Below are positions 9,243 to 31,641 of a stretch of DNA of 31,641 nt, piece after piece. The stretch spans positions 1 through 31,641 of the IMG/VR virus record IMGVR_UViG_3300032516_000110; one strand, given 5' to 3'. A model generated the notes under the pieces. It saw nothing but the letters and a program-made list of their open reading frames with translations, was not told the DNA's origin and ran no database searches. This stretch comes from a virus. The translations under genes and the position numbers were made by a program. Within the stretch, counting starts at the first letter, position 1. Each line of letters starts with the position of its first letter.

Positions 9243-10352
9243 ATGATGCAGACTCTTATGGTTAAGGTAGAGACTACCTCGGAGCAAGCTGAAGCTCTCC
9301 ACAAGACCATGCATCATTTTAATGCTGCGTGCAATGACATCGCCAAGACCGCTTTTGAATTGCGGCTTGCAAACAAAATTGAGTTGCAGAAGACCGTCTA
9401 TTATCGCGTTCGAGAGCAATACAACCTTTCTGCTCAGATGGCCGTTAGAGCCATTTCCAAGACGGTTGAAGCCTACAAGCGAGACAAAGATATCCAAGTA
9501 GAATTTGATCTTGATGGGGCTATGCCCTATGATCAACGTATCATGTCTTGGAAAGGACTTGACCGGGTTTCTCTGCTTACCCTGGAAGGCAGACTCATCA
9601 TGCCTATTCGCATCGGTGAGTACTACTCGGATAGGATGAACAGGCCAAGAGGCCAGGTTGATCTGATCTTCAGGAACAAGACGTTCTATCTTGCCGTTGT
9701 TGTGGATGCTCCTGAAGCTTCGCCTATCGATGCTACGGCGGTTCTTGGTATTGATCTTGGTGTCAAGAATATTGCCGTAGACTCTACCGGGGAAGTCTTC
9801 TCTGGTGACAGAATCGAGAAGACCAGACGTAAGATAGACGTAATCAAGGCCGATCTGCAACATTGTGGCACACCAAGTGCCAAGAGGCATCTTAAGAAGA
9901 TAGGCAAACGCGAATCCCGATTTAGACGTGATACTAATCATTGCATCTCCAAAAAGATGGTTGCGAAGGCTATAGACACTTCTTCCATTATCGCACTCGA
10001 AGATCTTGAGGGCATCAGGAAGAGGACTACGGTTAAGAAGTCCGAGAGGCGCAAGCATCTTTCTTGGGGATTTGCCCAACTCAGGCAGTTTGTAGGCTAC
10101 AAGGCGGCCAAAGCGGGTATTCCTGTAGTCTACATCGATCCTGCCTATACCTCCCAAGAATGCCATGTTTGCCATCATATCTCCAAAGCCAACCGTCCCA
10201 CAAGGGATGATTTTGTTTGTACCTGCTGTGGTTCCTCTTCCGATGCAGACTACAACGCTGCTATGAATATCAGAGCAAGGGTAGAAGCCAACCTGCCCAT
10301 CGTAGCGCGACTTTTTGCGCAGCTACAAGCCCCGCCCTTTAGGACGGGGTAG
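9243..10352 (+). CDS. tnpB: TnpB RNA-guided nuclease (IS605/IS1341 type), intact
   Basis: A 369-residue protein with the complete TnpB layout. The N-terminal helical region (1-160) is followed by RuvC-I GIDLGVKN (Asp171), RuvC-II ALEDLEG (Glu253), a zinc finger with CxxC pairs at Cys307/Cys310 and Cys326/Cys329, and RuvC-III DADYNAAMNI (Asp336). All catalytic and zinc residues are present, so the nuclease should be active. Known TnpBs cut DNA next to a short motif equal to the insertion target, guided by an omega RNA from the element right end; this favours element retention and re-insertion. Here the motif would be TTCAC. A second ATG follows at 9246. The stop overlaps the right-end hairpin, so RNA and coding sequence share their ends. 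Confidence 0.96.
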   Translation: MMQTLMVKVETTSEQAEALHKTMHHFNAACNDIAKTAFELRLANKIELQKTVYYRVREQYNLSAQMAVRAISKTVEAYKRDKDIQVEFDLDGAMPYDQRIMSWKGLDRVSLLTLEGRLIMPIRIGEYYSDRMNRPRGQVDLIFRNKTFYLAVVVDAPEASPIDATAVLGIDLGVKNIAVDSTGEVFSGDRIEKTRRKIDVIKADLQHCGTPSAKRHLKKIGKRESRFRRDTNHCISKKMVAKAIDTSSIIALEDLEGIRKRTTVKKSERRKHLSWGFAQLRQFVGYKAAKAGIPVVYIDPAYTSQECHVCHHISKANRPTRDDFVCTCCGSSSDADYNAAMNIRARVEANLPIVARLFAQLQAPPFRTG

Positions 10353-10376
10353 TTGACAGCATGACGATTCCCTGGT
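10200..10376 (+). ncRNA. predicted omega RNA and guide of element 1
   Basis: By analogy with known TnpB elements, the guide RNA spans the tnpB 3' end and the right end, and the guide is the flanking DNA after TTGAC (from 10358, AGCATGACGATTCCC). Visible structure is a GCGC/GCGC hairpin (about 10306-10321) and the terminal CCCCG-hairpin (10331-10349). The 5' end is uncertain. The guide matches the viral DNA downstream of the insertion, so the RNA should address the uninterrupted viral site. Confidence 0.5.
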
Positions 10377-10527: not shown

Positions 10528-10571
10528 CGTCCAAGGAGGCCCACGACTTTAGTCGTGGGAGGAATTGGACG
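10528..10571 (+). repeat. left-end stem-loop of element 2
   Basis: Outer arms CGTCCAA and TTGGACG flank a perfect inner hairpin CCCACGACTTTAGTCGTGGG. The internal segments ggaggc and aggaa match those of the element 1 left end. The outer-arm differences between the two copies are compensatory (GCCCAA/TTGGGC versus GTCCAA/TTGGAC). Confidence 0.75.
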
Positions 10572-10692
10572 CTCCCCGGCGTTGTTCGTTATCCAATATT
10601 CGATTAATGACCTTATCATAGCTTTCTCCTTTTTTGCCTATATCCACAAGGCGTTGCTTGGTCTCGCTTCTAACCTGTATCGTAGTTAGCAT
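10549..10692 (-). CDS. ribbon-helix-helix protein (antitoxin-like), cargo of element 2
   Basis: A 47-residue frame starting MLTTIQVRSETKQRLVDIGK, then KGESYDKVINRILDNEQRRG. This is the RHH pattern of small archaeal antitoxin or regulator proteins: a basic beta strand TTIQVR that contacts DNA, helix A (residues 9-19), a turn KKGESYD and helix B (25-36). The stop codon lies in the left-end hairpin, so the last residues are encoded by the transposon end. The ATG is about 27 nt from a TATA-like arm, giving a leaderless transcript. No toxin gene is next to it. The likely role is dimeric DNA binding to the adjoining palindrome (inference). Confidence 0.8.
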   Translation of the reverse strand: MLTTIQVRSETKQRLVDIGKKGESYDKVINRILDNEQRRGASNSSHD

Positions 10693-10696
10693 AAGT

Positions 10697-10723
10697 CTTA
10701 TATAGCATTAGATACTATATAAG
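10697..10723. promoter_or_regulatory. divergent promoter/operator palindrome of element 2
   Basis: CTTATATAG and CTATATAAG form a perfect 9-bp inverted repeat with a 9-bp spacer. Each arm is also a good archaeal TATA box. The right arm read on the minus strand is centred about 27 nt from the RHH ATG (10692). The left arm read on the plus strand would start RNA near 10727, feeding the omega-like RNA. RHH dimers normally bind such repeats, so autoregulation together with RNA control is likely. Confidence 0.7.
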
Positions 10724-10726
10724 AGT

Positions 10727-10972
10727 ATGTTCTTGTGGCCCGCAAGGGTCAACCCGATTATCGTAGCGTTTGGGTCGAACTGTCTCAAGGCTGCTACAGC
10801 CGTTTGAAATGGCCTGTTAGGGGGTCGCTTCCCTGATGCCAACCAGCCTATCGTCGTCCGTTGTTGGTCTGAACCCAACCGTCTTATGAGGAACCAACCT
10901 CTTAACGAAAACTGGAACGGCAAGCCCATGACTTCAGTCATGGGTGGTTGACAATCAGCTCAAACAGATCAT
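10727..10972 (+). ncRNA. free-standing omega-like RNA of element 2 with 3' guide
   Basis: From the predicted start near 10727 to the right end at 10952, followed by guide-position DNA (10953 on, AATCAGCTCAAACAG). Three hairpins are visible: TTGG/CCAA (10864-10878), GAGG/CCTC (10888-10901) and the terminal CCCATGAC/GTCATGGG (10925-10944). The inverted copy at 31517-31641 keeps the loops while changing both sides of each stem, strong evidence that structure is selected. No tnpB reading frame overlaps it, unlike element 1. A 26-residue leaderless frame (ATG 10727) exists at its 5' end, but coding is doubtful. Confidence 0.65.
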
Positions 10973-11213
10973 AGAGCCTGCCCGCCCCCACCATAAGAAG
11001 AAGGAGAGCTAACGCACCATCACGATAAGTCGCCCATTTCTCTAATTTGGTTACTCTTTCCGGTAAGTTATCTTCTTTCAGGATACCTAGTGCAAGTGTT
11101 GCCGCATCTCGGAAAACGCCAAATTTTGTAATGATCTCCTGGATGGCGGTCAGCTTCTCATCCATGCGGGTGAGAAGTTCCTTCTCTTCGGGCGTCAATG
11201 CATCAGCTCCCAT
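10938..11213 (-). CDS. holin-partner-like membrane protein, C-terminus altered by element 2
   Basis: A 91-residue protein. Residues 1-65 are charged and helical (MGADALTPEEKELLTRMDEK onward); a membrane segment follows (about residues 68-82, DGALALLLLMVGAGRL). The layout resembles haemolysin/XhlA-type proteins that work with a holin. The last residues VNHP and the stop are encoded by the transposon right end. Deleting element 2 between TTCAC and TTGAC restores the ending LYDLFELIVKGG and a stop of almost the same length, so the insertion probably leaves the protein functional. It overlaps the right end of element 2 by 15 nt. Confidence 0.72.
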   Translation of the reverse strand: MGADALTPEEKELLTRMDEKLTAIQEIITKFGVFRDAATLALGILKEDNLPERVTKLEKWATYRDGALALLLLMVGAGRLYDLFELIVNHP

Positions 11214-23127: not shown

Positions 23128-23336
23128 GCCTCCTCCTTTCCCTTCTCCTTTGCCGTCCCTTCCAGCTTCTCGACTCTGGCCTGCCAGGTCATGACCTGCT
23201 CTGCGGCTATCTTGTCATCCTCGATGGGGCAATTGATGGCCGAGCGCAGGCCGAGCATTTTGGCTCGCCAGTATTCCAGCTCGTTTTTGGCCCCCTGTGG
23301 CTCGGAGGCTTTTGAGCGGGGATAATCTGAGATCAA
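23124..23336 (-). CDS. helical protein of unknown function
   Basis: A 70-residue frame from TTG 23336, which overlaps the pentapeptide gene stop (TTGA) and has GGGGGG about 7 nt upstream; a TTG at 23360 would add eight residues. It reads SKASEPQGAKNELEYWRAKM and ends in a Lys/Glu-rich helix (EKLEGTAKEKGKEEA). A single-helix or coiled-coil protein is likely. Confidence 0.62.
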   Translation of the reverse strand: MISDYPRSKASEPQGAKNELEYWRAKMLGLRSAINCPIEDDKIAAEQVMTWQARVEKLEGTAKEKGKEEA

Positions 23337-24049
23337 ATGATAGCCCCCCTTGATTTGCAATACTCTTTCTGCTCACAACTCAGGTCCGCCCCTCTCAGGT
23401 CCGCCCTGCTCGGGTCCGCCCTGCTCAGGTCCGCCCCGCTCAGGTTCGCCCATCTCATGTTCACCCCGCTCAGGTCCGCCCCGCTCAGGTTCGCCCGGCT
23501 CAGGCCCGCCCAGCTCAGGGTTGCCACTCTCAGGTTCGCCCCTCTCAGGTTCGCCCCGCTCAGGTCCGCCTCGCTCAGGTTCGCCCGGCTCAGGTTCGCC
23601 CAGCTCAGGGTCGCCACTCTCAGGTTCGCCCCTCTCAGGTTCGCCCCTCTCAGGTCCGCCCCGATCAGGTTCGCCCCGCTCAGGTCCGCCCTGCTCAGGT
23701 CCGCCCTGCTCAGGTCCGCCCGCTGTAAGGTTTTCGGGTCATGCTTCAGTGAGTTGGCTGTGAGCCACTGCATAATTTCAGATGCCACGGAATCTTTCAG
23801 CCGGGCAACCCCGAATACGATCTCAGCCACGCCAAGATCTACGGCTTGCTTCTTGCATTCACCATCAGGCGCATCCAGAGTGATGCAATTGGGGAATGTG
23901 TACTCGATCTTCACGACGCGGTTATGCTGTTCTACCGGCACGCATTCCGACTGCAATATATCATGGCTGCTGTTGCCTTCTTTACCAAAAATTTGTAATG
24001 GCGATCCATCTTCCGGGACCACCGCGATAATCGCTATGCCCACACACAT
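23333..24049 (-). CDS. pentapeptide-repeat protein with N-terminal Cys2 domain
   Basis: A 238-residue protein from ATG 24049, which overlaps the SSB-like stop (TGATG); an upstream in-frame extension inside the SSB gene is rejected. Residues 1-105 form a separate domain starting MCVGIAIIAVVPEDGSPLQI. Residues about 110-225 are roughly 23 repeats of A(D/N)L(S/R)x (for example RADLSRADLSGANLIGADLR), predicting a right-handed quadrilateral beta-helix. Such helices can mimic DNA and bind gyrase; that role here is only a possibility. The repeats contain a 90-nt (six-repeat) duplication at 23491 and 23581. Confidence 0.85.
   Translation of the reverse strand: MCVGIAIIAVVPEDGSPLQIFGKEGNSSHDILQSECVPVEQHNRVVKIEYTFPNCITLDAPDGECKKQAVDLGVAEIVFGVARLKDSVASEIMQWLTANSLKHDPKTLQRADLSRADLSRADLSGANLIGADLRGANLRGANLRVATLSWANLSRANLSEADLSGANLRGANLRVATLSWAGLSRANLSGADLSGVNMRWANLSGADLSRADPSRADLRGADLSCEQKEYCKSRGAII
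23491..23660 (-). repeat. 90-bp offset duplication in the pentapeptide gene
   Basis: The sequence from 23491 recurs from 23581 with only a few mismatches over about 70 nt, including the irregular unit encoding RVATLSWA. The high identity points to a recent in-frame duplication of six pentapeptides. Confidence 0.75.
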
Positions 24050-24627
24050 CAGCGTACCCCCGCCTTCTCTGCGGCTGCCCTTTGCTGCTCGATCCAATCC
24101 TGGCCGGGATCTGCCTGCGCCTGTGCCTGTGCCTGTGGCGTGGCCTGGGCGGCTGCCTGGCGGGCCTGGAACGATGCCTCTCTGTCAGCATCGCTCACCG
24201 GGATTGGTGCGGGCACTGGGGCAGCCTGGTTGACTGCGGGCTTCTGGAGGAGGCGGATAAACCATCTCCTATCTTTTCCGTTGCCCGTTGCCGTTGCTCT
24301 CAAAGTGCTTCCGGCCAGGCTTGACATGCCTTCCTTCTTGCAGATCGCCAGGATCTGTTGCATAACAGAACGGTTTGTGACCGCCCATGTCTTGATGTCT
24401 GTGTTATTTCCGTCCATTACCTCAATCTTGAACTCTGGTTTGGGACTTCCGTCTGCATACGGAAATTTGCTTACCCCCTTCACTGGGTCTTTCACAATCT
24501 TCAATATCTTTTCATCTTCGTCTGCTGCGAATTTCAGGAAATTGCTGCTTCCGCTGCTGACCTCATCCATCTCATTCATCCATTGGATTGTCTGCGTTTG
24601 TTGCTGTGCCTGTACTTCGGTTGTCAT
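24049..24627 (-). CDS. single-stranded DNA-binding-like protein
   Basis: A 192-residue protein from ATG 24627 (MTTEVQAQQQTQTIQWMNEM); a TTG four codons earlier is less likely. Residues about 25-120 are beta-rich in the manner of an OB fold (FKIEVMDGNNTDIKTWAVTN, then SSLAGSTLRATATGNGKDRR). The C-terminal 70 residues are an Ala/Gln/Pro-rich low-complexity tail. It lies directly after the primase-helicase gene, where phages often encode an SSB. The assignment is tentative. Confidence 0.6.
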   Translation of the reverse strand: MTTEVQAQQQTQTIQWMNEMDEVSSGSSNFLKFAADEDEKILKIVKDPVKGVSKFPYADGSPKPEFKIEVMDGNNTDIKTWAVTNRSVMQQILAICKKEGMSSLAGSTLRATATGNGKDRRWFIRLLQKPAVNQAAPVPAPIPVSDADREASFQARQAAAQATPQAQAQAQADPGQDWIEQQRAAAEKAGVR

Positions 24628-31504: not shown

Positions 31505-31516
31505 TAATAGTGTAAT

Positions 31517-31641
31517 GTCAACTACCCACGAATAAATTCGCGGGCTTGTCGTTCCAGTTCTCGTTAAGGGGTTGGTTCCCCATCAGACGGCCAGGTTCAA
31601 ACTGGCTACGGACGACATTAGGTCGGTTGACATCAGGGAGC
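31517..31641 (-). mobile_element. element 3: right end and omega-like RNA of a third element (partial)
   Basis: Read on the minus strand, the sequence ends in GGGTAGTTGAC with the terminal hairpin (31525-31544). It matches the last 125 nt of element 2 at about four in five positions, including all three hairpins (31568-31581 and 31591-31605 for the inner two). The rest of the element lies beyond the window, so whether it encodes tnpB is unknown. Its guide-position DNA would start at 31516 (ATTACACTATTACC). Confidence 0.8.

Follow-up and report, generated by a model that had tools for sequence, protein, structure and literature searches.

Background

The closest precedent for the arrangement described here comes from cyanobacterial type V-K CASTs, in which small RHH genes of the Arc_1/Arc_2 type lie in reverse orientation upstream of cas12k (PMC9938897). 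The MerR-type regulator gene and cas12k of the CASTs are leaderless, and CvkR, itself of the MerR type, gave no sign of autoregulation when tested (PMC9938897). Both systems have a small, reversely oriented RHH gene immediately upstream of a TnpB-lineage effector on a transposon. However, the CASTs are Tn7-like, cyanobacterial, dependent on bacterial promoters and have cas12k as the target, whereas the elements examined here are of the IS200/IS605 type and carry closely facing archaeal TATA promoters, with tnpB or a stand-alone omega-RNA-like RNA as the predicted target.

Three further groups of described systems bear on the locus. SvtR, AvtR and F55 are RHH factors of archaeal viruses that occlude and so repress their own promoters, and the sites bound by F55 of SSV1 are ATAGATAG repeats (PMC5569661). 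These are small RHH proteins like the one studied here, and the F55 sites contain ATAG; they regulate viral genes, however, while the present RHH gene is part of an insertion element, opposite tnpB, RNA or HNH genes. The VapB antitoxins (PF02697, DUF7557) show N-terminal RHH similarity to the element protein, which differs in being shorter, in having no toxin and in its neighbour. Elements of the ISDra2 type within IS200/IS605 (PMC8612924) share end hairpins, a structured RNA at the right end and a guide taken from flanking DNA. In ISDra2 tnpB is present and the RNA comes from its 3' end, whereas the element considered below (element 2) has no tnpB, has a separate predicted promoter for the RNA and has gained an RHH gene.

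The literature searched, which took in few subscription journals or preprints, contained neither RHH control of tnpB nor an archaeal tnpB-omega-RNA case with closely facing TATA boxes. Natural on/off control of TnpB and its guide RNAs is largely unexplored, and the cassette is of interest as a compact, testable switch that is conserved beside tnpB and resembles an arrangement known for the TnpB-lineage effector cas12k. Our reading, which we hold to be probable, is that the cassette of element 2 is an autoregulated bidirectional promoter through which the RHH protein represses both its own mRNA and the RNA.

Two insertion elements side by side in a viral genome

The window, by which we mean the whole 31,641-nt stretch of DNA that was analysed, comes from an archaeal virus and has a gene set that includes an SU10-type major capsid protein, a terminase and a D5-type primase/helicase. 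It also contains two adjacent IS200/IS605-type elements. Element 1 has a tnpB gene (9243 to 10352, plus strand; PF07282 and PF01385) flanked by end hairpins and lacks an RHH gene; its TnpB is a possible source of the protein in trans. The omega-RNA 3' end of element 1 (10284 to 10362, plus strand) is matched at 44.6 bits (E 1.6e-11) by R1, the covariance model described below for the RNA of element 2. Element 2, at about 10531-10953, is likewise of the IS200/IS605 type but small and non-autonomous, with neither tnpA nor tnpB, and its plus strand holds no convincing gene. Its left-end hairpin (10531 to 10571, plus strand) has 76% identity with the left end of element 1, and its right-end hairpin (10921 to 10953, plus strand) terminates in GTTGACA, a pattern in common with the tnpB element. 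The Y1 transposase family PF01797 was found in 6 of 6 related genomes searched, which would make a transposase available in trans, and nowhere in the window record.

No uninserted viral counterpart of the element 2 site was found when one was sought to define the exact ends. Among relatives of element 2, three near-identical elements (L283, L285, L286) have differing left flanks, which indicates mobility of those relatives, and the element family is present in multiple copies in genome G002. A viral ORF on the minus strand (10938-11213) has its C-terminal residues encoded by the right end of element 2, which suggests that the element was inserted at the 3' end of this gene. The RNA 3' part and right end occur a second time at 31512 to 31641 on the minus strand (80% identity over 124 nt; 130.6 bits with R1). 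This copy is truncated by the contig end, and the assembly may have ended at the repeat. Elsewhere in the window, an ORF on the minus strand (23333-24097) encodes pentapeptide-like repeats (ADLSRADLSGANL...).

Opposed promoters and predicted transcript starts

The sequence-only reading had placed two opposed TATA boxes between the RHH gene and an RNA gene, and comparison with relatives bears this out, since both boxes are conserved with a fixed geometry in 14 aligned copies. The box for the RNA, CTTATATAG, lies at 10697 to 10705 on the plus strand, and its core TTAWATA is invariant in the 14 copies. The box for the RHH gene, which reads CTTATATAG on the minus strand, lies at 10715 to 10723, is conserved in all aligned copies and would serve a leaderless transcript. 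From the first box centre (10701) to the predicted RNA start at 10727 there are 26 nt, and from the second (10719) to the RHH ATG (10692, minus strand) there are 27 nt, both of them usual as archaeal TATA-to-start distances. Across copies TTAWATA on one strand faces TATATA on the other at 18-19 bp (18 bp in element 2), and the region upstream of RHH aligns in the 14 copies as AAGTCTTAWATAG-N9-CTATATAWA, in which TTA.ATA (first box) and the second box's core vary little or not at all.

Box positions carry 1.76 and 1.74 bits each (average 1.75), compared with 0.83 bits in the spacer. Among the same copies the synonymous sites of the RHH gene approach saturation (dS from about 1.1 to infinite), and its dN/dS, with the window as reference and where computable, is 0.12-0.36. 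Because the boxes stay near-invariant against this background, they must be kept by selection. Bases outside the boxes are conserved as well (G13, T14, A18, T21 and C23 in alignment numbering). A strict two-box pattern gave 2 matches in 50 Methanotrichaceae genomes, both at RHH/tnpB junctions; a loose promoter pattern gave more than 119 matches in viral contigs, mostly by chance.

Box spacing thus places the probable starts at the RHH ATG (10692) and at 10727. The latter position, also proposed from the single sequence, gains support from relatives, as related RNA-only elements have the predicted beginning of their RNA at the equivalent position, which is also where two tnpB genes start. The start codons of these tnpB genes (L280 and L265) fall at alignment position 36-37, where a leaderless transcript would begin, against 35 for the RNA start predicted in the window. 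In the RNA-only element L223 resemblance to the window RNA sets in at the predicted start, and this element, L211 and L212 have TATTTAT upstream. A 26-aa frame that opens with an ATG at 10727 was considered as coding and judged unlikely, because L211 and L223 carry ACG at that position.

Relatives and partner genes

More than a dozen copies of the same RHH gene, each with the same opposed boxes, were found in Methanotrichaceae genomes and on viral contigs; within Methanothrix sp. OWC_0023 the RHH family is multicopy, and several viral contigs also carry it. The partner across the promoter is an RNA in the window and in L020, L231, L146, L147, L287, L230 and L283-L286, with L149 probably the other end of the L147 copy. 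Going beyond what had been claimed for the window, the divergent partner is tnpB itself in five loci (L213, L262, L227, L265, L280). Two of these tnpB genes lie at contig ends (L213, L262) and that of L227 is damaged at its 3' end; L280 and L265 encode full TnpB proteins confirmed by Pfam (PF01385, PF07282, PF12323). L282 was placed in neither group. On one of the viral contigs (L020, 1990-2570) short GTCAAGTC/GGCAGTC-like repeats form a long, degenerate array.

The right ends of the tnpB-bearing RHH elements L265, L227 and L280 are of the GTCAC type and not GTTGACA. This difference suggests that the cassette probably moved between element subfamilies and that element 2 is no simple deletion product. 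Given the same difference in right ends, derivation of element 2 from an element of the L280/L265 type by direct loss of tnpB is no more probable than module exchange.

A second RHH subtype has TNVRLK in place of TxIQLK in the predicted strand (R for Q), and its boxes are further apart. Here an inverted repeat of 12-13 bp, ATAGCGTAATAT / ATATTACGCTAT, lies over each predicted start, making these arms a possible operator pair. The partners are either an RNA of the same kind (L228, L229, L263, L264) or an HNH-AP2 endonuclease (L266, L292). In the four loci with RNA the ATAGCGTAATAT / ATATTACGCTAT arms are tens of nt apart. The HNH-AP2 genes (L266 1086-1862 and L292 1896-2411, both minus strand) have the second-subtype RHH gene divergently upstream, accompanied by the inverted repeat just described. 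Both loci have this upstream cassette in common, although their endonucleases differ. A hairpin, GAGATGGATCTTTCTAAATCCATCTC, lies 3' of the HNH-AP2 gene of L266.

The palindrome as candidate operator

The 9-bp arms originally noted, CTTATATAG (10697-10705) and CTATATAAG (10715-10723), are exact. The palindrome, which separates the RHH gene from the RNA, is in fact slightly larger (10696 to 10724), with either 10-bp perfect outer arms or 13-bp arms in which 12 of 13 positions pair around a 3-nt centre. No other 13-bp inverted repeat with at most 1 mismatch and a loop of at most 9 exists in the window, and each of 12 Markov shuffles contained 0 of such quality. In a local AT-rich stretch of 100 nt the chance of such a palindrome is about 0.001.

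The perfect symmetry is not a family trait. In 11 aligned copies, halves within one copy matched no better than halves taken across copies (P = 0.45 overall, 0.22 for inner positions), so the perfect palindrome is not conserved as such, and a palindromic operator stays a candidate, since the symmetry of any single copy is no better than the conserved columns predict. What is conserved instead is the box pair with ATAG-N9-CTAT, and as most copies retain only the latter, the symmetry is partly just that of two facing TATA boxes. The idea that the perfect palindrome as such serves as operator is thereby weakened. The family consensus from the 14 aligned copies, ATAGTA-N5-TACTAT, is compatible with a two-half-site RHH operator.

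These observations bring up the alternative that the promoters are real, that the palindrome is a by-product of two boxes facing each other, and that the RHH protein acts elsewhere while the transcripts compete. TATA boxes are nearly self-complementary, the dyad shows no within-copy covariation and the spacer is poorly conserved, all as this explanation would have it. Yet the conserved consensus includes bases outside the boxes, an RHH gene so placed normally targets its own promoter, and the second RHH subtype, with R for Q, pairs with a different inverted repeat. The accompanying change of residue and repeat fits the repeats being operators. On balance we regard the by-product explanation as rather unlikely.

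Returning to the autoregulated bidirectional promoter, the cassette would comprise the RHH gene and the divergent omega-RNA-like RNA, with two opposed archaeal TATA promoters facing each other over 18 bp. An RHH dimer would most likely bind the dyad in and between the boxes (core ATAG-N9-CTAT) and, once bound, would block TBP/TFB at both. It would repress its own leaderless mRNA together with the divergent RNA or tnpB in a negative feedback loop. At a distance of 18 bp the boxes leave hardly any room for two preinitiation complexes at once, and competition between the two sides is therefore also probable. In general, such a cassette would let nuclease or guide RNA be made in a burst upon entry into a new host and would then shut this expression off. 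Because relatives keep the arrangement in front of tnpB, it resembles a switch by which a mobile genome-cutting system turns itself on and off. If the RHH protein worked in trans, the activity of every related copy in a cell would depend on a single small protein.

A wider view can be offered only tentatively. The RHH/bidirectional-promoter cassette may be portable, and shared and swapped among archaeal mobile nucleases, here taken to comprise tnpB, tnpB-less omega-RNA elements and HNH-AP2 endonucleases; the RHH protein of tnpB-less elements might repress its own RNA and a resident tnpB in trans, and such mini-elements might tune or parasitise the TnpB of relatives and viruses.

The RHH protein and its similarity to antitoxins

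The RHH gene (10549 to 10692, minus strand) encodes a DUF7557/VapB-like protein of 47 aa. Its assignment to the RHH type agrees with a Pfam match to DUF7557 at 29.2 bits, above the cut-off of 25. An AlphaFold monomer has two helices and no strand (pLDDT 81), with weak RHH matches in the PDB to SeqA and ParD2. In a class search of 238 genomes, hits above about 60 bits were nearly all on elements of this kind; most generic VapB-type hits of the 238- and 393-genome searches, which were partly inspected, lack the opposed-box layout. RNA-only elements without an RHH gene also exist (L016, L211, L212, L223), so the gene is dispensable.

The protein had been called antitoxin-like, and of this description the VapB-like similarity stands while the accompanying toxin gene is absent from the element copies. 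That the gene might be an orphan VapBC-type antitoxin riding on the element, its promoter overlapping that of the RNA by coincidence, would accord with the DUF7557 match and with similarity to VAPB_antitox, the latter at 23.3 bits and below its cut-off of 27.9. We consider this very unlikely. No VapC (PIN) toxin gene lies beside the RHH gene, as element 2 has no other gene and the neighbouring viral ORFs tested gave no match to a Pfam family, and every other element copy is likewise without a toxin gene. The element-associated proteins, mostly 42-51 aa, do not have the C-terminal extension of generic VapBs of 60-90 aa, and what they are paired with is tnpB, an RNA or the gene of an HNH endonuclease.

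The omega-RNA-like RNA

The candidate omega-RNA-like non-coding RNA extends from 10727 to 10953 on the plus strand; its start is predicted from the promoter, its 5' end aligns to L223, and its guide would be the sequence after 10953. The structured, conserved 3' part (10835 to 10957, plus strand), from which model R1 was built together with its relatives, aligns with the second copy at the window end (31512-31634) and also, in genome G034, with RNA-only elements. In the predicted structure 10 pairs show compensatory double changes in a set of five sequences, three of them close relatives. These counts exceed those of nearly all shuffles and all slid controls, and we consider the support for the structure good but not overwhelming. 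A search of Rfam with the RNA gave zero families above threshold.

R1 picks up tnpB elements by their 3' ends, among them that of element 1, and has matches in 29 of 50 Methanotrichaceae genomes, part of the signal being the element end itself. In TnpB elements the element end is the end of the omega RNA (reRNA) (PMC8612924); the matches to tnpB 3' ends thus argue that the RNA of element 2 is omega-RNA-like. Both these matches and the conserved G-U pairs favour the plus strand that the sequence-only reading had assigned. The RNA may be used by TnpB in trans.

An RNA on the minus strand, as in IscB/HEARO, would run in the same direction as the RHH gene and leave the plus-strand promoter unused. 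It was considered on account of shared end hairpins: a HEARO (IscB omega RNA) element at L010 (3400-3661, minus strand) shares its end hairpin consensus with the TnpB elements of this study, so that the end pattern alone cannot separate TnpB from IscB. There is also a HEARO match on the minus strand of element 2 (10950-10895), but at 14 bits it is far under the cut-off of 83. The conserved G-U pairs suit the plus strand, and the R1 matches at the 3' ends of tnpB elements are in the sense orientation. Every aligned copy has a TATA box on the plus strand, and L211, L212 and L223 have the TATTTAT noted above. The minus-strand RNA was rejected on the G-U pairs and the model matches, and we rate it as very unlikely indeed, marginally below the orphan antitoxin. 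The further suggestion that the palindrome is a DNA hairpin or recombination site for a Y1 transposase deserves next to no credence. IS200/IS605 transposases are known to recognise hairpins, but the hairpins of element 2 are at its ends (10531-10571 and 10921-10953), whereas the palindrome lies inside the element, is rich in AT and shows no conservation as a hairpin.

Three other tnpB-less elements of roughly 350-450 nt (L210, L224, L215) have the same kind of ends. Their interiors are longer, different, conserved and RNA-like (e.g. GGTAGGGCAC motifs), and are possibly further omega-RNA-like families.
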